Below, piece after piece: positions 5,838-52,575 of a DNA stretch of 52,643 nt. The number at the start of each line of letters is the position of its first letter. Position 1 is the stretch's first letter. The DNA is taken from the NCBI GenBank assembly GCA_001769195.1, contig MEOK01000036.1:41987-94629 (forward strand). The letters are read 5' to 3'. The DNA is from Bacteroidetes bacterium GWF2_40_14. GTDB taxonomy: Bacteria; Bacteroidota; Bacteroidia; Bacteroidales; UBA932. The notes below the pieces were generated by a model. The model made no database searches. It was given only the letters and a program-made list of their open reading frames with translations, and was not told where the DNA came from. Both the position numbers and the translations under genes were made by a program.

Positions 5838-6119
5838 GGGGGACACCTTACTCGGCACCTTACTCTGCCAAAGACCTTAGTAGTTATCAGATAATCAAAT
5901 AATTGTATATTTGTCTGATTTTCAGGCCGTGACAAACTCCCTTGAAGTTTTTTACAAGTTTCAGATATGTAGGCAAATACAAAATAATTTTTTAATAACC
6001 GTTTCTTAAAAATTCTATATACTACTGTAAGGAAGCTATATATGAAAAACTTCAAGGAAGTTTTTATGTACTCCACCCTTAACAATTTGGGTACACAATG
6101 TTCGTCCCCGTGTACCCTA
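5838..6119. other. Intergenic region with decayed repeat fragments
   Basis: 282 bp between two convergent genes. It contains pieces seen elsewhere in the window: CTCTGCCAAAG around 5865-5875, a TCTGATTTTCAGGCC segment near 5911-5926 that resembles the left flank of the dispersed three-hairpin element, and AACTCCCTTGAAGTTTTT at 5935-5952, which recurs at 38934-38951. No ORF worth calling. Confidence 0.6.
6045..6065. terminator. Bidirectional hairpin terminator between M64 and trpB
   Basis: Perfect 9-bp arms (AAAAACTTC / GAAGTTTTT) around a 3-nt AAG loop, with A and T runs on the two sides. It suits termination from both convergent genes. Confidence 0.6.
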
Positions 6120-8739: not shown

Positions 8740-10383
8740 ATGAAAGTAAATCTTAAAGCTATCACAAACAACCTAATTGTGATAATTGCCCGCAATCCTG
8801 TAGAGATAATCATCTCCGGTGCCTTTTTCTTTCTCTCTTTCCTAACATACGAGAAGATTATGAAACCGGAAACCTATGGAGAGAATCTGCTTATTGCACC
8901 ACTCGTATTTGCATTCTCCTACCTTCTTAACCGTGTATTCACCACCGGCATTAAAAGAGTTATATATTATCTGTCGGTTCTGGCAGCAGCAATACCATTT
9001 CTTGTGAATGCCTCGGACTGGGTGGAAAGTGGCGAATATGTGGCATCGCTTGCGGTGGCAGTAGCCTTTCTGGCAATCTACACCAACTACAAGGACAACA
9101 CAAAATTTGTAAGGAACATACTTGCCTATGCTAAGGAGCTTTTCTTTACAATGGCCATAGTTACCGCAATCTTCGCGGCATTAATTGCGATATTCTTCTC
9201 GTTCATCTATCTCTTTGATATTTTCAAAGACTCGTACGACAATATCGCTTTCTATACTTCAATTGTATGCTACATAATCCTTGCACCGGTTACCTTCCTG
9301 TATCTCAACGCCGACGACGGGAACAAAAGAGAGGCGTTCCGTATAACCAAGATTTTTGAGGTCATTATTAACTATATATTAGCACCGGCACTCATTATTT
9401 ACACCATAATCCTCTACCTGTACATTGCGAAAATCATAATAGGATGGTCTCTCCCAAAGGGCAGCCTTGCATATATGGTCTTTGGGTTCATAATCTCTGC
9501 AATAGTAATAAAAGCGGGAATGCTGATGGTTAGCAAACCCACATTTACACGCTTTTTTGAGTCGTTCAGCTTGATTGCCATTGCACCGCTGGCTCTCTTC
9601 TGGATAGGATCACTGCACAGGATATCGCAATACGGCTTTACAGAAGAGAGAGTCTATCTGATAGTCTGCGGAGCTATAATGACACTTACAGTGTTGCTCT
9701 TCATCTCGCGGAAATATGACAAATATCTGTATGTAGGCTATGTTACCATTGTCCTGCTCTCTCTCTTTTCCTATATCCCTGCAATATCGGCCAAACAGAT
9801 TGGAATAAAATCACAGACATATCAGCTTAAAACCCTTGCCACCGAACTAAAAATGATGGGAGAAGACGGAAAATTGACAGCTCCGCCTCAGGTTTATGAC
9901 GACTCTTTGTCAAAGGCAAATTTCGTGCGTCTTTACGACATCTACTCATATCTGGCAAGACAAACGGATAAGAACCTTTTAGAGTACCTTTACGGCTATC
10001 CTTCAGGAGGAGAGCTCCGTACGAAATTTGGAGAGAACTTCACATATAAGGAGTACAACAAAAATTCAATAGAGAGAGTTGAGGATAAGTTCTCCACAGC
10101 CGGATATCCATGGATAAATACAGATGTATATTCTACTGTGGCCAATGACACACTAACAGTTCTTGGCTTAAAAGGAGATGAGTTAATTGCTGCCCCACTC
10201 ACCCTGCTTATGGAAAGGCTAGCATTTTCGGCACAGAATGACTCTATTACAGGAGTGTTGTTTTATCCAGATTCCGTCCTTTATCTTGACATTGATAATT
10301 ACAGAGTCATTTTCTCTAAAATATCATTTGATAAAGAGGAAAATATATCAAAAGCAATTGTAAAAGCACTGCTCATAAGGTAA
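8740..10383 (+). CDS. DUF4153-type integral membrane protein
   Basis: 547 residues. The first two thirds is almost entirely membrane segments (about eleven), with family-like stretches such as the AKELFFTMAIVTAIFAALIA segment and VTFLYLNADDG. The last 180 residues are soluble and polar, beginning after a final helix near YIPAISAKQIGIKSQTYQL. It matches my memory of DUF4153 proteins, which are widespread and functionally uncharacterised. It is monocistronic with its own -7 box; a dispersed repeat element starts right after the stop. No catalytic motif is recognisable. Confidence 0.7.
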   Translation: MKVNLKAITNNLIVIIARNPVEIIISGAFFFLSFLTYEKIMKPETYGENLLIAPLVFAFSYLLNRVFTTGIKRVIYYLSVLAAAIPFLVNASDWVESGEYVASLAVAVAFLAIYTNYKDNTKFVRNILAYAKELFFTMAIVTAIFAALIAIFFSFIYLFDIFKDSYDNIAFYTSIVCYIILAPVTFLYLNADDGNKREAFRITKIFEVIINYILAPALIIYTIILYLYIAKIIIGWSLPKGSLAYMVFGFIISAIVIKAGMLMVSKPTFTRFFESFSLIAIAPLALFWIGSLHRISQYGFTEERVYLIVCGAIMTLTVLLFISRKYDKYLYVGYVTIVLLSLFSYIPAISAKQIGIKSQTYQLKTLATELKMMGEDGKLTAPPQVYDDSLSKANFVRLYDIYSYLARQTDKNLLEYLYGYPSGGELRTKFGENFTYKEYNKNSIERVEDKFSTAGYPWINTDVYSTVANDTLTVLGLKGDELIAAPLTLLMERLAFSAQNDSITGVLFYPDSVLYLDIDNYRVIFSKISFDKEENISKAIVKALLIR

Positions 10384-10386
10384 GTA

Positions 10387-10690
10387 GCTTATGTTTCCAA
10401 CATGTCCGACAAAATCATGTGCAAACTGAGTTGAAAATTTGTATTCAGGAGGAATCAAAGAGCTCAAGAAGGTATGTGTCGGCAAGATTTGCCGACACAT
10501 GGTTTTATATTCAGCTGCAAATCTGGTACTTGCTAACTGCTTTGGCAGAGCAGTTAGCAAATAACTGACTAGTAGACCAATACGCATACTTCTCATTTCC
10601 AGGAAAGAGCTAAGCCCTCTGGCAGAGTCTCTGCCAGAGGGCTTAGCTCTTTCCTGATTTACAAACACTTAAAAAATGGTCTGAAAATCA
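10387..10690 (-). repeat. Dispersed three-hairpin element, copy A
   Basis: Read on the minus strand this about 300-bp unit has a conserved left flank (TTGATTTTCAGACCATTTTT, about 10690-10671), a long palindrome (HP1 10600-10656), hairpin HP2 (10530-10560; arms TTGCTAACTGCT / AGCAGTTAGCAA), a TGCAGCTGAATATAAAA spacer, hairpin HP3 (10474-10500; 12-bp arms) and a right end CATGTTGGAAACATAAGC. Copy B at 43030-43383 has the same order. The unit fills the gap between the DUF4153 and phosphoesterase genes; the ORF running through it (10348-10668) is not convincing as a gene. Confidence 0.8.
10600..10656. repeat. Perfect 57-bp palindrome
   Basis: Two perfect 28-bp arms around a single T at 10628. 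The core is CTCTGGCAGAG / CTCTGCCAGAG. The same core with different but still complementary outer arms occurs at 33262-33302 and 43069-43115. Confidence 0.92.
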
Positions 10691-10764
10691 ATTAAATATG
10701 CAATACGTTGATTGTCTGTCATTTGCCTGAGTCACCAATCACTATACGATACCTCAAACTGCGC

Positions 10765-42853: not shown

Positions 42854-43029
42854 CGATAGGGTCTGACGATATAATCTGCCAGTACAATAAGCCACGGCAG
42901 TTTATCAGTTGGTTTGCTACTTTTTTCTTCATAAATTGACACTGTTTTTGTGTCAACCTATTTCAGGACGGGACAAGACTCTGCCAAAGGTTGGTACGCG
43001 CCTGACAATCTGTTAATTACATATTTATT
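42854..43029. other. Intergenic region after smpB
   Basis: Holds a hairpin at 42936-42956 (arms TTGACAC / GTGTCAA) and a fragment GACTCTGCCAAAGGTTGGTA / CGCGCCTGACAATCTG (about 42969-43004) that resembles the interior of the dispersed element starting at 43030. No ORF. Confidence 0.5.
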
Positions 43030-43383
43030 TGATTTTCAGACCATTTTTCAAGTATTTGTAAATCAAGCAAGTGCTAACCCCTCTGGCAGAGACTCTGCCA
43101 GAGGGGTTAGCACTTAATTGAAAATGAGAAACGTGCGTATACGCCTGACAATCTATCACTTACTAACTGCTCTGCCAAGGTTGTTAGTAAGTGTCTTATC
43201 TGCAGCTGAATATAAAATCATGTGGAGGCAAATCTTGCCGACACATACCTTCTTGAGTTTTGAATCCTCCTCAACACCAATTTTCAACAGGGTTTTAGAA
43301 AATTTCGCATTGTTCAGTGCTTTTTTATTCAGTGCCCTTTGCAGTTTTTACATGATTTTGCTGTACATGTGGGAAACTATTGT
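43030..43383 (+). repeat. Dispersed three-hairpin element, copy B
   Basis: Same order as copy A, on the plus strand: left flank TTGATTTTCAGACCATTTTT, HP1 palindrome 43069-43115, GAAAATGAGAAACGTGCGTA, HP2 43157-43193 (arms CACTTACTAAC / GTTAGTAAGTG), spacer TGCAGCTGAATATAAAA, HP3 43220-43246 (10 of 12 pairs kept), TACCTTCTTGAG, and a right end CATGTGGGAAACTATTG. The middle is longer than in copy A. A 95-residue ORF (43118-43405) overlaps but looks like a by-product of the repeat. Confidence 0.8.
43069..43115. repeat. Perfect 47-bp palindrome
   Basis: 23-bp arms around A43092 with core CTCTGGCAGAG / CTCTGCCAGAG and outer arms AAGTGCTAACCC / GGGTTAGCACTT. Related to the palindromes at 10600-10656 and 33262-33302. 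Confidence 0.92.
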
Positions 43384-45392: not shown

Positions 45393-45400
45393 TAAATTTG
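45393..45400 (+). promoter_or_regulatory. -7 box TAAATTTG for pgk
   Basis: A TAnnTTTG match 36 bp before the pgk ATG at 45437. An upstream in-frame TTG lies inside this box and is therefore not used as the start. Confidence 0.65.
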
Positions 45401-45436
45401 CCCCGACAAATAAGTACCAACTTAATATTTTTCCTT

Positions 45437-46693
45437 ATGCAAAAGATTGATAATTACGATTTCTCCGGCAAAAGAGCAATTGTCCGTGTAGACTTTAATG
45501 TTCCACTGAATGAGTCATTTCAGATTACTGACGATACCCGTATCCGTGCAGCAATTCCAACACTTAAAAAGGTTCTGGCTGGTGGCGGTTCGCTTATTAT
45601 AATGTCGCACCTTGGCAGGCCAAAGGGCCCTACAGGCAAATACTCTCTAAAACATATCATTGGTGACATTGAAACCAAGCTTGGTACAAAGATTAAGTTC
45701 GCTCCGGATTGTATGGGAGAAGAGGCCGCTGAGCTCTCTAAGACCCTTAAGCCGGGCGAGGTACTGTTGTTGGAAAATCTTCGCTTCTATGCTGAGGAAG
45801 AGGGAAAGCCTCGCGACCTGGCCGAGGATGCTTCTGACGAGGTTAAGAAGGCCGCTAAGGCCGACATGAAAGAGAAGCAGAAAGATTTCACAAAGAAATT
45901 GGCTTCTTATGCCGATTGTTACATAAATGATGCTTTTGGTACCGCTCACAGGGCTCATGCCTCTACAGCGCTTATTGCCAAATACTTTCCTAATGACAAA
46001 ATGTTCGGTTATGTTATGGAGGGCGAGATTATTGCTATTGACAAGGTTCTAAAGACTCCTGCTCATCCTGTAACTGCTATTCTTGGCGGCGCCAAAATCT
46101 CTACCAAGATTGCCATTATCGAGAAGTTGTTCGATGTTGTTGACAACATGATTATCGCAGGCGGTATGGTTTACACATTTGTAAAGGCTCAGGGTGGTAA
46201 AATTGGTAGTTCTCTTTGTGAGGAAGACCAGATGCCTCTTGCTTTGTCGATTCTTGAAAAGGCTAAGGCTAAAAACGTTAAGATATATTTCTCTGGTGAG
46301 GTTGTGATTGCCGATGCTTTCAGTGCCGATGCCAATACCAAGGTTTGTCTGGATTCTGAGATTCCTGATGGTTGGATGGGTATGGATGCTGCTGAGTCTA
46401 CTCTTAAGGAGTGGGAGGGTGTTCTGAGGGCTTCCAAGACTATTCTGTGGAACGGTCCGGTTGGTGTGTTTGAGATGGAGAAGTTTGCTGTTGGGACCAA
46501 GAAAATTGCTACTATGCTTGCTGACGTCACTAAGCATGGTGTCTTCACTCTTGTTGGTGGTGGCGACTCTGTTGCTGCTGTTACGCAGATGGGTTTTGCC
46601 GATAAGGTGAGCTATGTGTCTACTGGTGGTGGGGCGATGCTGGAATATCTTGAGGGCATCGAGTTGCCGGGGATCAAAGCTATTCGTGAATAA
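45437..46693 (+). CDS. pgk: Phosphoglycerate kinase
   Basis: 418 residues from ATG 45437. [57 protein letters not shown], the hinge [12 protein letters not shown] and the nucleotide loop [17 protein letters not shown]. It makes ATP in glycolysis. Codon use toward the 3' end is strongly GNT-rich (GGT, GTT, TCT, CTT), in line with high expression. The stop is followed immediately by a long inverted-repeat structure. Confidence 0.96.
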
Positions 46694-46933
46694 CGCTCAT
46701 TTGCATTTCCTTTAATTGTTGTGTAATTGCCCTCGTGGGCCGTGCACCGCAATTACCCGCTTCGCGTTCATTTCGCTAAAAAACAAAGGTGTCGACCGAG
46801 AGTATGCTAGTGCAAATTAGATACCGGTCGACACTCTCGTTTTTTTACGCTCCATTCACTAAGCGGGTGCCCAAACCCTAATTGCAATGCCCACTCAGAC
46901 AATTACACAATCAAATTTTTATGCAAATGAGTA
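46694..46933. repeat. Six-stem nested inverted repeat downstream of pgk
   Basis: Six arm pairs nest in perfect order: 46696-46706/46921-46931 (CTCATTTGCAT), 46719-46729/46900-46910 (TTGTGTAATTG), 46735-46740/46889-46894 (GTGGGC), 46749-46755/46879-46885 (GCAATTA), 46755-46762/46861-46868 (ACCCGCTT) and 46789-46798/46825-46834 (GTGTCGACCG). The apical part also has CGAGAGT/ACTCTCG (46797-46803/46833-46839) before seven T, overlapping the last stem. The region begins 3 bp after the pgk stop, so part of it may act as the pgk terminator. The size and nesting suggest a structured RNA or a fold-back mobile unit. Confidence 0.8.
46797..46846 (+). terminator. Candidate pgk terminator within the structure
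   Basis: CGAGAGT (46797-46803) pairs with ACTCTCG (46833-46839), directly followed by seven T. This stem shares two bases on each side with the competing 10-bp stem 46789-46798/46825-46834, so the two are alternatives or form a pseudoknot. Confidence 0.5.
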
Positions 46934-47000
46934 ATATATAGAAATAGCTATTTTCTTACCGACAACTTTACACCCTAAATCTTGCCTAGTACCGTATCCC

Positions 47001-47260
47001 GGAATTACCCACTCCTCTCCTTGAGTGGGTACCCAATTCCTCCAGATAAGCATCTTCAAACTCTGCTCCTTATCCTGTTTTTGCCCTAAATTTGCGCCCT
47101 TAATATCGAATAGCTCATAATCACCCAGAAGTCAGACGCCTTCTTGGACCGTGCACCGGGTTTACCCACTTAACGCTCCATTCGCTTAGTGGGTACCCAA
47201 ACTAATTGCAAGCATCTGCGAACCCCTCTCCCTATCCTGTTTTGCCCAACAATTGCGCTC
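47001..47260. repeat. Two tandem hairpin repeats between pgk and gajA
   Basis: Repeat 1: hairpin GGAATT-ACCCACTC / GAGTGGGT-ACCC-AATTCC (47001-47040), then AAGCATCTTCAAACTCTGCT, TATCCTGTTTTTGCCC and TTTGCGCCC (to about 47099). Repeat 2: ACCCACT / AGTGGGT with ACCC then AAAC (47161-47202), AAGCATCTGCGAACCCCTCT, TATCCTGTTTTGCCC and TTGCGCTC (to about 47261). Each keeps an unpaired ACCC after the 3' arm. A third, weaker relative (GAGCTGGTGCCCA at about 47298) and another TATCCTGTT (47392) follow. No ORF in 46694-47576. Confidence 0.75.
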
Positions 47261-47576
47261 AGATTTTGTGACTAAGCCATAGATTTACTCTCTTTGAGCT
47301 GGTGCCCACATTGTCCTGATTTCAATAAAATATCATTTTTTGCTATACTTCTAAGAATTAGTTGCATAACATATATAAAAAAGTATAACTTTATCCTGTT
47401 GAACAATTTGCGGCAAATTGAAAGAATTGTTCAATATACTTGATTTAAGCACCAAATATTTGAGGACTTTATGCAGGATAAGTAAGGTTATAAGACGACT
47501 TAGCATCAAATACACAACTAATTTTAAAATAAACTTATTTGAAAATATACTGATAGTAGAAAATTAAATTGGACTA

Positions 47577-49631
47577 ATGAAGATAAAAGACATTACCATA
47601 AAAAACTTTAGACTTTTAGAAGATGTAAGGTTAAATATTGAAGAAGACATAACCCTAATTGTCGGCAAAAACAACACTGGTAAGACATCACTTTTTGAAG
47701 TAATTAATATGTTCTTTAACGAAAAGAACAATTTAAGTTTTCCCGACTTTTCGCAAAAAACATACTCTCAGTTTGAAGCAAGTTTCAAAATTTATGAAAC
47801 AGTTCTAAAAGAAACTGACGAAGAAAAAAAAGAAGAGTTAGAAAAATCTTTAATCTCATCTATACCTAACATTCAACTTGAAATTCAAATTGAATATGAC
47901 AAAGCTAAAGACAGTTTGATAAATCTTTCCGAATTTATAAGCGACCTTGATGATTCTAAAAATATAGCAACTATAAAATTACAATATAAATCAAAAGATA
48001 GCTTAAGGCTATTTGCTGCATTTGGTGTCCGAAAAGAAAAGGAACAAAAATTAATTGAGTGGCTAAATGAAAATATTACATCGTATTATGACATCAAATG
48101 CTATGGCGGTGATAATTTGATTGAAGAAAACTTCAAACGAAAACTTCTTTCAGTTTTATATTTTGAAACCATTCAAGCATCAAGAAAATTAGACGACACA
48201 AAAGCAGATAAAAACAAAACATTAGCCGTAGGTTTTTCTGACTATTACCGAGAAACAAATAAAGACAATAATGAAGACATCGAGAGCTTAGAAAAACAGC
48301 TAAAAGAAACTTCTACGGTTCTTAATGAAAAATATGAGAACATTCTCAAAGAGCTACTTGAAAAACTTAAACTGTTTGGAGTTGAACCTCATTTGACAAT
48401 TCCTGAAATTGTTCTTCAAGCAGGTTTTGACCCCGAAAACATTCTTAAAAACAACATTAAATACTTTTATAAACAAAATGATGTTACACTTCCTGAAAAC
48501 TTTAATGGTTTAGGCTATAGTAATTTGATTTATCTTGTTCTCAAAGTGGTGAGTTTCATAGAAAAATTCAAAAAGGCAGCACCTTTATACAAATCTGAAA
48601 CCCTCACAATTTTAATTGAAGAACCTGAAGCACACTTGCACCCGCAAATGCAACAAGTTTTTATTTCCCAAATTAAACGGACAATAAAAGAAACTAAAGT
48701 AAAAGAAAACTTGGCGGTTCAAGTCATTATAAGCACTCATTCATCTCATATTGTAACAGAAGCAGGAATAGATGTTGAAAGAAGTTTTGAAAGAATCAGA
48801 TATTTCTCAAAGCTATATGTTAAAACTGAAAACCGATATAAAATTGAAGTAAAGGACTTTAACGAATTTAAGCATAAAGAAAGTGATAAAGAAACATTTC
48901 GTTTTCTCAAACAATATATGAGCCTTCATAGATGCGACATATTTTTTGCAGATAAGGCAATTCTCGTTGAAGGGACAACTGAAAGAATTTTACTTCCACT
49001 TATGATAAATAAAGTTGCTAAAAGTTTGAATAACGAATATGTTTCTATAATTGAAGTTGGTGGGGCTTATACTTCAAAATTTAAAGAACTACTCAAATTT
49101 GTTGGAGTGAAAACATTAATTATCACCGATATTGATTCTTGTGATATAAACTCCAAAGAAGAATGTAGTGTAAATACACCAAATTCATTTACTTCAAATG
49201 AAACACTTAAAAGCTGGATTCCAAAGAAAGAAGGTATTACAGAATTGCTTGCTACTTCAGAAAGTGAAAAATATGATGATAAATCAATTAGAATAGCCTA
49301 TCAAATACCTGAAGTGTGTAATGGGCATTGTGCAAGAAGTTTAGAGGAATCAATAATCAATGTTAATATTTCTTTTTTTAAGGATAACTACTTTACAGAT
49401 GAAGGGGACGAAAAGAAAATAAAGATTCATTTCTCAATTTTTCATGGAAAAGAAGATGATTTAAACACAGAAAACATTTGGGAACTACGTCCAAAATCAT
49501 CAAGTACAAAAACGAATTTTGCTTTTGCATTGATGACTTTTGATGAAAATAAAACGAAAAAAGAATGGCAAGTACCTTTGTATATTAAGGAAGGTTTAGT
49601 TTGGTTGGCAAAAAATGAAATTGGGAAATAA
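47577..49631 (+). CDS. gajA: Gabija-like GajA: OLD-family ATPase-TOPRIM nuclease
   Basis: 684 residues. ABC-type ATPase with Walker A GKNNTGKTS (30-38) and, after a long coiled segment (about 225-270), Walker B ILIEEPEAHLHPQMQQVFIS (about 346-365) and the switch IISTHSSHIVTEAG. A C-terminal TOPRIM domain has the catalytic Glu in ILVEGTTERILLP (about 462) and Asp-x-Asp in IITDIDSCD (about 518). This order is that of OLD nucleases; a UvrD-like helicase follows, the class 2 OLD / Gabija arrangement that blocks phage by cutting DNA under nucleotide control. Clearly more AT-rich than pgk and its neighbours, suggesting transfer. It is longer than the Bacillus GajA I recall (578), so a related subtype is possible. 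Confidence 0.87.
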   Translation: MKIKDITIKNFRLLEDVRLNIEEDITLIVGKNNTGKTSLFEVINMFFNEKNNLSFPDFSQKTYSQFEASFKIYETVLKETDEEKKEELEKSLISSIPNIQLEIQIEYDKAKDSLINLSEFISDLDDSKNIATIKLQYKSKDSLRLFAAFGVRKEKEQKLIEWLNENITSYYDIKCYGGDNLIEENFKRKLLSVLYFETIQASRKLDDTKADKNKTLAVGFSDYYRETNKDNNEDIESLEKQLKETSTVLNEKYENILKELLEKLKLFGVEPHLTIPEIVLQAGFDPENILKNNIKYFYKQNDVTLPENFNGLGYSNLIYLVLKVVSFIEKFKKAAPLYKSETLTILIEEPEAHLHPQMQQVFISQIKRTIKETKVKENLAVQVIISTHSSHIVTEAGIDVERSFERIRYFSKLYVKTENRYKIEVKDFNEFKHKESDKETFRFLKQYMSLHRCDIFFADKAILVEGTTERILLPLMINKVAKSLNNEYVSIIEVGGAYTSKFKELLKFVGVKTLIITDIDSCDINSKEECSVNTPNSFTSNETLKSWIPKKEGITELLATSESEKYDDKSIRIAYQIPEVCNGHCARSLEESIINVNISFFKDNYFTDEGDEKKIKIHFSIFHGKEDDLNTENIWELRPKSSSTKTNFAFALMTFDENKTKKEWQVPLYIKEGLVWLAKNEIGK

Positions 49632-49632
49632 T

Positions 49633-51462
49633 ATGACAGCTTTTGAACAAATATCTCAATACCTAAATGAACGCAAAAGCTTTGTTTTAGAGGCAGGTGC
49701 AGGCTCAGGGAAAACATATACGCTAATACAAACATTAAATTATCTCATTCAAAATAAAGGAGAGGAAATAAAAAAGACAAATCAGAAAATTGTCTGTATA
49801 ACCTATACCAACGTAGCTAAAAATGAAATTATTGATAGAATTGAGCACAATGAATTAGTTATTGTATCAACAATTCACGAGTTTTTATGGGGGTCAATAA
49901 AACAATATCAAAAGCAACTAAAATTTGAACTTTGTATACTGAATGAAATAAATTTAGCAAAAGATATAGCAAAGGGAAAAGATTCAAAATACATTGAAAA
50001 GTTAGAAGACAGAATAGATTCAATCAATAAAGTAGAATACAACGACTCGACATTTAACGATTTTGAAAAAGGACTGATTCAACATGATGACGTGATTGAA
50101 ATTGCAAAAATGATGTATGAAAATTATCCGCTTTTGACTGATATTGTTTCTGCAAAACACCCTTACATTTTTGTTGACGAGTACCAAGACACAGCAGAAG
50201 AAACAGTTTTCTGTTTAATTGATTGCCTTCTGAAACGAAATAGTAAAAAAGAAGTAATTGGGTTTTACGGTGATTCACACCAAAAAATTTATGATTACGG
50301 CATTGGAGATTTAGAAAAATACTACACTTCAAGAGGCGGACAAATAGAATTAGTAAAGAAAGAAGAAAATTATCGTTCTTCTCAATCCGTAGTTGGTTTA
50401 CTAAACAATTTCAGAAAAAACATTCAGCAAAAACCACAGAAGAAAATTGATGGCAGTGTAAAATTTATTTATTGGGCAAATCATCCAGAAAAACCCAAAA
50501 CTAAAATAAGAGAATTTAATGCCGAAATAGCTGCTACCAAAAACCAATTTTACGATACTGTTGTTAAAAAAATATCTGAATTAGGTTGGATATTTGAAGG
50601 AGATACTAATGCTAAAGTTTTGGTTCTTGCCAATAGCAGAGTTGCTAAAAGAGCTGGGTTTAGCAATTTATATTCTGTTTTTTCCACAAGATTTGGTCAA
50701 AGTACAAAAGAAAGATTGCTTGATAGAAATCATCATTTAATTACATATTTTGTTGGTTCTATTGACAAAAAAACATCACAAGAAAGAAAAATAGGTTTAG
50801 AACATTTAATTAATTTTTGGTATACTGGAAATCAAAATGAAGTAATAAGATTTATCAAAAAAAATGGCACAATACTGAACGGTGAATTTAAACATGGTCA
50901 CAAGAAACAAATTGCGGAATTTCTTGATACGCTTTCTTTAAATAGAAAAGATTGGAAAATAAAAGAAGTTTATGCTTTTGCTTCAAGCAAAGGTATTTTA
51001 TCCAACAAAAAATTTACTGAATTTATAGAAAGATTATCAATTGACCCAAAAGATTTAACAGAAGAAGAAAAAGAAAGACAGACTAAAGACAAAATACTAT
51101 ATGACGCATTTATGGAATTGTCATATACAGAACTTCAAAATTTCTGGAAACACGTTCAAAACAACACAGTATTTTCAACTAAACACGGAACAAAAGGTGA
51201 AGAATATACAAATGTGCTTACAGTAATTGATGATACAGAATGGGTTCAAGAATATAACTTCAAGAATTTTTTCAATGACACCGAAGAAATACCTGAACGA
51301 AAATTAAGAACAAGAAATTTGTTTTACGTTGAATGTTCAAGAACCATTGACAATTTAATTGTTTTGTGTTTATCAGACCTTGACCCTGCTGCAATTGCAA
51401 ACGTTAAAACTTGGTTTGGTAGGGACAACGTAATTGATGTAGAAGAATATTTAAAGAATTAA
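49633..51462 (+). CDS. gajB: Gabija-like GajB: UvrD/PcrA-like helicase
   Basis: 609 residues from ATG 49633 (an ATG at 49615 adds six residues and overlaps gajA by 17 bp; both starts fit). Superfamily 1 motifs in order: LEAGAGSGKTYTLIQTL (Walker A), CITYTNVAKNEI (Ia), IFVDEYQDTAEE (II, about residue 181), GFYGDSHQKIYDYG (III), ENYRSSQSVVGLL (IV), TKHGTKGEEYTNVLTVID (V) and LFYVECSRTIDNL (VI). In Gabija the partner helicase senses DNA or nucleotide state and works with GajA. Translation is probably coupled to gajA. Longer than the Bacillus GajB I recall (494). AT-rich like gajA. Confidence 0.87.
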   Translation: MTAFEQISQYLNERKSFVLEAGAGSGKTYTLIQTLNYLIQNKGEEIKKTNQKIVCITYTNVAKNEIIDRIEHNELVIVSTIHEFLWGSIKQYQKQLKFELCILNEINLAKDIAKGKDSKYIEKLEDRIDSINKVEYNDSTFNDFEKGLIQHDDVIEIAKMMYENYPLLTDIVSAKHPYIFVDEYQDTAEETVFCLIDCLLKRNSKKEVIGFYGDSHQKIYDYGIGDLEKYYTSRGGQIELVKKEENYRSSQSVVGLLNNFRKNIQQKPQKKIDGSVKFIYWANHPEKPKTKIREFNAEIAATKNQFYDTVVKKISELGWIFEGDTNAKVLVLANSRVAKRAGFSNLYSVFSTRFGQSTKERLLDRNHHLITYFVGSIDKKTSQERKIGLEHLINFWYTGNQNEVIRFIKKNGTILNGEFKHGHKKQIAEFLDTLSLNRKDWKIKEVYAFASSKGILSNKKFTEFIERLSIDPKDLTEEEKERQTKDKILYDAFMELSYTELQNFWKHVQNNTVFSTKHGTKGEEYTNVLTVIDDTEWVQEYNFKNFFNDTEEIPERKLRTRNLFYVECSRTIDNLIVLCLSDLDPAAIANVKTWFGRDNVIDVEEYLKN

Positions 51463-52020: not shown

Positions 52021-52575
52021 ATGAAGACTGACGATATTACACAAAAATTAGGTGTTACATTAAAGGAATTTCTTGGTTTCTTAAAAAAAGAATTACATAA
52101 AAAAGTTTTAGAACTTGACACAAATATAAAAAGTAAAGACTATTTTGAGGAATTAACAAGAGTGTCAAATAGTCTTGAACAATATGTTCAAAAAGATGTA
52201 AGCTTGTTTTATGTTGGTTTTCTTGGAAGTTATAGCTCAGGGAAGTCAAGTACAATAAATTCTTTGTTACAACTATGGGACACTGACAAAGCAAGGATAG
52301 TAAGTAATAATCCTACTGACACAAGTATTACTTTAATAACAAATCAAAATAATGTTAATAACGTTTTTACATTCGCAAAAGAAGGAGCTATACCAATAAG
52401 AACGTACACCAATTTTGACTCTCCATTACTTGAAAATATTGTATTAATGGATACTCCTGGTTCTGGAGACCCTAATATAATAGAAAGTATTGTAAGAGAC
52501 AGTTTGCCACTTTGTGATTTAATAATTTATACCCTTAACGCAACCGCTCCATTTACAGATGTAATCGGTAAATAG
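52021..52575 (+). pseudogene. Truncated dynamin-like GTPase
   Basis: 184 residues are readable before a stop. N-terminal helices precede a GTPase: G1 GSYSSGKSS (69-77), G2 Thr in NNPTDTSITL (about 101) and G3 VLMDTPGSGDPN (about 144-147). Dynamin-like proteins normally have hundreds more residues after this point; here the frame runs into VIGK and stops where a different, repeat-bearing sequence starts. I read this as a gene cut by an insertion sequence. Some bacterial dynamins act in membrane repair or phage defence; the position beside a Gabija-like pair is suggestive only. Alternative: a complete small GTPase, unlikely because the G4 motif is missing. Confidence 0.75.

Follow-up and report, generated by a model that had tools for sequence, protein, structure and literature searches.

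Integron attC sites are imperfect palindromes in which the stems vary and some parts are conserved and unpaired. REPs are given a length of 20-40 bp in one published passage (PMC3733652). Part of another paper (PMC6006769) describes atypical structures, with copies elsewhere, that flank the TnpA-REP genes of Bacteroidetes. Group IIC introns are described in part of a third (PMC4424553) as inserting after intrinsic terminators and at attC sites. The element reported here belongs to a window of 52,643 nucleotides (the whole stretch of DNA that was analysed) from Bacteroidetes bacterium GWF2_40_14. It is read, with a probability of about 0.6, as one of a dispersed family of long palindromes, broadly REP/BIME-like repeats, which would be copied by a Y1 enzyme and would act as a two-way terminator behind pgk. 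We take the open reading frame that ends at the element to be pgk, phosphoglycerate kinase; pgk is also the name given by the initial annotation. The features are as follows.

45398..46693, + strand: host gene taken to be pgk (phosphoglycerate kinase); open reading frame call, with a stop codon that abuts the element
46694..46933, unstranded: whole fold-back element; folding of both strands
46695..46706 (left arm) with 46921-46932, unstranded: outermost stem, 12 bp; minimum-energy fold
46718..46729 with 46900-46911, unstranded: outer stem, 12 bp; minimum-energy fold
46735..46740 with 46889-46894, unstranded: stem of 6 bp; minimum-energy fold
46752..46876, + strand: conserved family core, TTACCCRCTT ... 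AGYGGGTGCCCAAA; covariance model match of 122.9 bits, E 1.7e-23, this copy being itself among the 11 that built the model
46754..46762 with 46861-46869, unstranded: core stem, 9 bp; fold and alignment
46778..46845, unstranded: inner hairpin; fold and alignment
46778-46784 with 46839-46845: A/T stem of the inner hairpin, 7 bp; fold
46788-46798 with 46825-46835: GC-rich stem of the inner hairpin; fold
46802-46805 with 46821-46824, and 46807-46811 with 46816-46820: small stems of the inner hairpin; fold
47004..47038, + strand: short relative of the core, lacking the inner hairpin; 28.4 bits, E 0.0003
47161..47202, + strand: second short relative of the core, likewise lacking the inner hairpin; 40.6 bits, E 2.2e-5

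The interval 46680-46950 folds at -92.0 kcal/mol, compared with -52.9 +/- 4.2 for 200 dinucleotide shuffles (z -9.35; 0/200 as low), and the complementary strand also folds strongly (z -8.84); the fold described in the initial annotation is confirmed and lies far beyond chance. The element itself (46694-46933) is a single long imperfect palindrome. Its helices are strictly nested and measure 12, 12, 6, 4, 9, 7, 11, 4 and 5 bp, with a 2-bp step and three single pairs; six of them have 6 bp or more, which agrees with the six nested arm pairs first proposed. An apical stem was also said to compete with a 7-bp stem. Both are nested and coexist in the minimum-energy fold, and no competition is seen. 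The window contains more stable folds than the element, which has -88.4 kcal/mol for 240 nt: when 437 windows of that length were folded on a grid, two gave lower energies (-106.9 and -91.1 kcal/mol). The arm at 46718..46729 is of the GTGTAATTG type, which by eye is common to some other copies, the remaining copies having different arms. In the core stem, the conserved CCC is unpaired on the 3' side. An A-tract and a T-tract give the inner hairpin the look of a terminator on both strands. The loop is long, and a run of seven T (46840-46846) begins 4 bases past the GC-rich stem. A pattern scan of 46600-47576 for canonical intrinsic terminators (a short-loop GC stem followed by a T run) gave none, because the apical loop is too long for the scan. 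Two-way termination by the hairpin is probable.

The element has many relatives. A DNA search of its own genome (3.36 Mb in 42 contigs) found 20 places, several of them near contig ends and one elsewhere in the window. A covariance model of the 125-nt core (R1) was built from 11 of 14 aligned copies; the other three do not have the conserved 5' half. It gave at least 32 matches in the own genome at E <= 0.01 and at least 31 at E <= 0.001, which are lower bounds because 140-150 of about 1000 candidates were scored. Matches at E <= 0.001 were present in 4/25 genomes of the genus: the own genome (at least 31), G017 (at least 5), G014 (at least 4) and G013 (at least 1). Under stricter filters, a sample of the family gave matches in 5/299 genomes; the fifth, from another genus, is weak (34.9 bits), with a layout that is similar by eye. 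Five places in five unrelated organisms (genome contigs) matched a sequence pattern and were taken as chance, not as wider spread; the pattern search of viral contigs gave no matches. It is well supported that this is a long-hairpin family dispersed within its own genome, with few matches outside the species.

Copies keep their pairing while their sequence changes. In a structure-blind MAFFT alignment of 29 copies, a structure of 30 pairs is paired in 91.7% of 845 cells; slid partners pair in 39.5-53.5% of the cells. Both sides have changed in 20/30 pairs. The covariation score is 0.329, compared with 0.140 +/- 0.009 when shuffled (0/500); the weakest covariation measure, further pair types, was reached by 10/500 shuffles. 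The 30-pair structure was assembled from RNAalifold and from a reading of the rows, and therefore leans towards these sequences. The model yielded 40 rows (L026-L065), 12 of which the alignment excludes. These are L029, which is the window copy and was aligned under its window coordinates instead, and 11 copies that are at contig ends, interrupted by an intron, partial or remnants. Swapping arms between copies destroys the pairing of the inner stems (8.1 vs 4.1; 37 copies; 0/20000 permutations) and of the outer stems (20.0 vs 7.8; 28 copies; 0/20000 permutations). The rows used were 38/40 for inner stems (37 distinct), with 29 distinct stems among the 37 copies and some of only 3 bp, and 28/40 for outer stems. 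The copies are related, so the changes in pairing cannot be counted as independent. Outside the core, BLAST finds inverted arms that start within 20 nt of it in 23/36 copies with enough flank; 12/36 have none and one has distant matches alone, while four more copies are too short.

Like REPs, REPINs and BIMEs, the copies are palindromes that lie between genes and near gene 3' ends. They are also mosaic and nested, and in five of them the core stands between inverted short repeats. The differences are of size and of constancy. The core has 125 nt and the window copy 240 nt, compared with the 20-40 bp given for REPs in part of PMC3733652, and the stems covary rather than repeat exactly. The classical foot GTAG/GGAG does not appear as an invariant motif in the 29-copy core alignment; the outer ends are variable and lie outside that alignment. 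The core adjoins no RAYT or other Y1 gene among those found in its four genomes (G000, G013, G014 and G017), where other palindrome families do flank Y1 genes. This also sets it apart from the atypical structures of subclass 2.6 described in part of PMC6006769, which it otherwise resembles: both are long non-GTAG structures with copies elsewhere and the same kind of enzyme in the genome. That likeness is one of description, not of compared sequences. An outer motif, GGGGACGCAC, is one position off the consensus GGGG[AT][CG]A[CG] given for TIRYT terminal inverted repeats in parts of PMC3733652 and PMC6006769; it occurs in some copies only, and no found Y1 gene lies between such sites. The copies share with attC sites the imperfect palindrome, varying stems and conserved unpaired parts, and group IIC introns also target attC sites (part of PMC4424553). 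The present copies differ in lying behind unrelated genes.

Y1_Tnp genes are present in 22/25 genomes of the genus, above the cut-off in 21. With a 13-protein profile, three were found in the own genome, three in G013 (two partial), one in G014 and five in G017. NCBIfam NF047646 (REP-associated tyrosine transposase) is the only NCBIfam match for 5/5 proteins, at 29-57.5 bits against a cut-off of 80, and Pfam Y1_Tnp is above its cut-off in 4/5. The HUH motif is present; N65, H66 and H68 (N-H-x-H) are invariant in the 13-protein alignment. Regions were fetched around 12 Y1 genes and one (L115) was dropped; L108 and L112 are one site in two genomes. By eye, other long palindromes lie at 10/11 Y1 loci: at six, a single kind of palindrome flanks the gene both 5' and 3'; at four, palindromes lie mainly 3' of the gene; and one locus (C41 of the own genome) has a short one only. 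The palindrome at the C25 gene has 33 half-sites in its own genome and none in four congeners. The Y1 gene at L105:2485-3288 (- strand) is in the same place in three genomes (also L108 and L112), behind genes which are presumably rpsB-tsf. The palindromes that flank it differ between the own genome and G017/G014; the enzyme may have been retained at this site and the palindrome changed. As no found Y1 gene neighbours the core in the four core-bearing genomes, its link to the enzyme is by analogy. On that analogy, the family was probably spread by a REP-associated-type HUH (Y1) transposase, which would process the hairpin as single-stranded DNA and so give new copies.

Copies prefer gene 3' ends. 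ORFs were called automatically on 40 rows, among which four pairs of congener rows, and L029/L055, are not independent. Genes flank the copy on either side in 31 rows and are convergent in 17 of these, tandem in 11 and divergent in 3. Nine of the 40 rows stop at a contig end, and eight have an ORF call of 49-273 aa over the core. At the window copy, the comparison of relatives covers the genus: pgk relatives are found in 24/25 genomes, and 22 3' flanks were compared, including the own, with the partial genes of G012 and G023 excluded. There are no core model matches in the 21 congener flanks. The initial annotation's fold-back mobile unit behind pgk therefore stands as regards spread, given this absence, the two short relatives downstream and the matches in the own genome; movement itself we infer. 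Within 160 nt behind pgk, a terminator-like hairpin is clear in 11 of the 21 congeners, doubtful in 3 and absent in 7, and several congeners have a co-directional reading frame at once behind pgk. Over that distance the element's hairpin is the only terminator-like one in the own genome. Transcription behind pgk may now be terminated, in both directions, by this inner hairpin and its A-tract and T-tract.

It was also fair to place the element at the boundary of an accessory island, as a Gabija pair begins at 47577. GajA and GajB (47577-51459, + strand; PADLOC E 2e-179 and 9e-159) lie directly downstream and are followed by a 184-aa frame with a weak LeoA match (52021-52575, + strand). Elsewhere in the window, two other long hairpins (10380-10760 and 42860-43230) have CTCTGGCAGAGnCTCTGCCAGAG and neighbouring palindromes in common, and by eye appear to be another dispersed palindrome family; 10441-10680 is the most stable of the 437 windows on the folding grid.

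A group II intron meets the family at the inner hairpin. Rfam RF02001 (group II D1-D4-3) matches DNA adjoining copy L054 (L054:120-290, - strand, 109.7 bits). A pattern is read as the intron 5' end because of its GTGTG start and its place. It was found seven times in the own genome. Five of the seven come right after the T-tract in the inner hairpin of a copy, and two lie elsewhere; an eighth end, truncated where the contig stops, falls within a copy as well (L052). The six ends in copies are divided equally, three behind the + strand T-tract and three behind that of the - strand. Intron ends are placed at L185-L191, and most of the detected 5' ends are near contig ends. By analogy with group IIC introns, a multi-copy group II intron may use the hairpin as a landing site; its membership of class C is only a candidate one.

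These observations can be read another way: the copies may be a host-derived family of two-way terminators or mRNA-stabilising hairpins, multiplied by selection at convergent gene ends and not itself mobile. The 3'-end bias, the A-tract and T-tract that flank a GC stem, and the want of another terminator-like hairpin behind pgk are all in keeping with it. So are the intron ends behind the hairpin on both strands, as some such introns target terminators (part of PMC4424553). This explanation is nonetheless unlikely. A 125-nt core that has conserved unpaired motifs, lies behind unrelated genes and descends from one ancestor must have been copied. A frame of 490 aa seems, by eye, to run into the element in copy L041. 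Copies are also nested by eye: at a site common to G017 and G014, the G017 copy lies inside another copy (L060 vs L059), and L062 shows nesting too, the left outer arm of its nested copy being absent from L065.

The outer parts of the copies vary more than the core. The GGGGACGCACATTGTGTAC motif occurs 31 times in the own genome at <=2 mismatches, and in none of 24 congeners, although three of them carry the core. Its sites are inverted around five copies (L030, L032, L035, L040 and L044), so that 5/32 are symmetrically bracketed at <=2 mismatches; the window copy is not among these. Diverged versions are seen by eye at a few other copies, such as L027 and L034. The motif also flanks other copies one-sidedly, stands alone, or forms an inverted pair without the core, which indicates that the outer parts of the elements are modular. 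One site of the motif lies in the window (6091-6109, - strand), with one mismatch. Runs of short tandem repeats of the TTAGCACA type are present in the right arm, downstream of the core, in L041, L043, L046 and L051. The flanks of L061 resemble diverged inverted copies of one terminator region and extend as far as the neighbouring gene's end. By eye, L061 and the pgk end suggest that host flanks may have been copied in inverted form; this would not be general, because several subfamilies share arms. An empty counterpart was sought only for the L061 copy (G017 vs G013), where the G013 contig ends at the junction. Where congeners have a site in common it appears to be inherited, so the family may or may not still be active.

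It is improbable that the copies are non-autonomous MITEs with terminal inverted repeats at their outer ends, on which a conventional DNA transposase would act. The five bracketed copies, and the few with diverged versions, are what such elements would give. The other matches are unbracketed at <=2 mismatches, the motif is found without the core and the core without the motif, and no parent transposase with such ends was noticed in a search confined to Y1_Tnp.

Selection on one RNA strand should tolerate G-U pairs, and A-C mismatches are not expected under it. The mismatch cells of the core comprise 15 G-T and 20 A-C (p 0.50); column pair 3-126, largely U-G and perhaps no true pair, was kept out of this count. 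The outer arms of 26 copies have 60 G-T and 51 A-C. The inner stem, aligned from its base, has 18 G-T and 9 A-C, which leans towards RNA; the core and outer-arm counts do not. As G-T is not clearly commoner than A-C, the pairing appears to be maintained at the level of DNA, or of both strands, and not in a one-strand RNA switch. Symmetry of mismatches would also be expected if both strands were transcribed or if template switching corrected the palindromes. Nowhere in the window does an Rfam family score up to its gathering threshold. At loose E-values the element and its surroundings give lncRNA and miRNA matches alone, far below gathering scores, and were rejected as a known RNA family, as was a weak match of copy L053 to IsrM (20.6 bits vs a gathering score of 376). 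The structured regulatory RNA of the initial annotation, a terminator switch (or riboswitch) or pseudoknot, is hardly credible: the very stable fold, the strong covariation and the inner-stem count speak for it, but both strands fold alike, the inner stems coexist, Rfam gives no match, the neighbouring genes are unrelated by eye and the mismatches of the core and outer arms show no clear G-T excess.

The preferred reading, a palindromic repeat copied by a Y1 enzyme, has its own difficulties. The copies are far longer than classical REPs, and their outer arms differ in a way that simple copy-and-insert does not explain. No Y1 gene found in the four core-bearing genomes stands beside the core, the one site searched gave no clean empty counterpart, the terminator scan was empty and the inner stem leans towards RNA. 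Under this reading, the pairing would be maintained by selection for the DNA hairpin, by template switching that corrects the palindrome, or by both. A more speculative form, which we consider doubtful, is a mobile hairpin of single-stranded DNA recognised by its shape and not by its sequence: a Y1 enzyme acting in trans would read conserved bulges and loops, the stems would drift while template switching restored perfect pairing, and the arms would lengthen at each site by nesting or by copying of flanks. The family is best regarded as a variant within the palindromic-repeat kind; it is well supported as a dispersed hairpin family, and no claim is made that it is absent from the literature.

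Strong covariation in bacterial intergenic folds may, these results suggest, stem from DNA hairpins and not from RNA. The count of G-T against A-C mismatches is a simple test that can be applied to other candidate structured RNAs. A single genome with diverged hairpins and several HUH genes that have palindromes of their own is useful for questions of enzyme recognition, and the family is also useful for asking how gene ends gain new terminators. If the hairpin is indeed recognised by shape, a selfish element would supply two-way terminators throughout the genome, and these in turn would be landing sites for introns.
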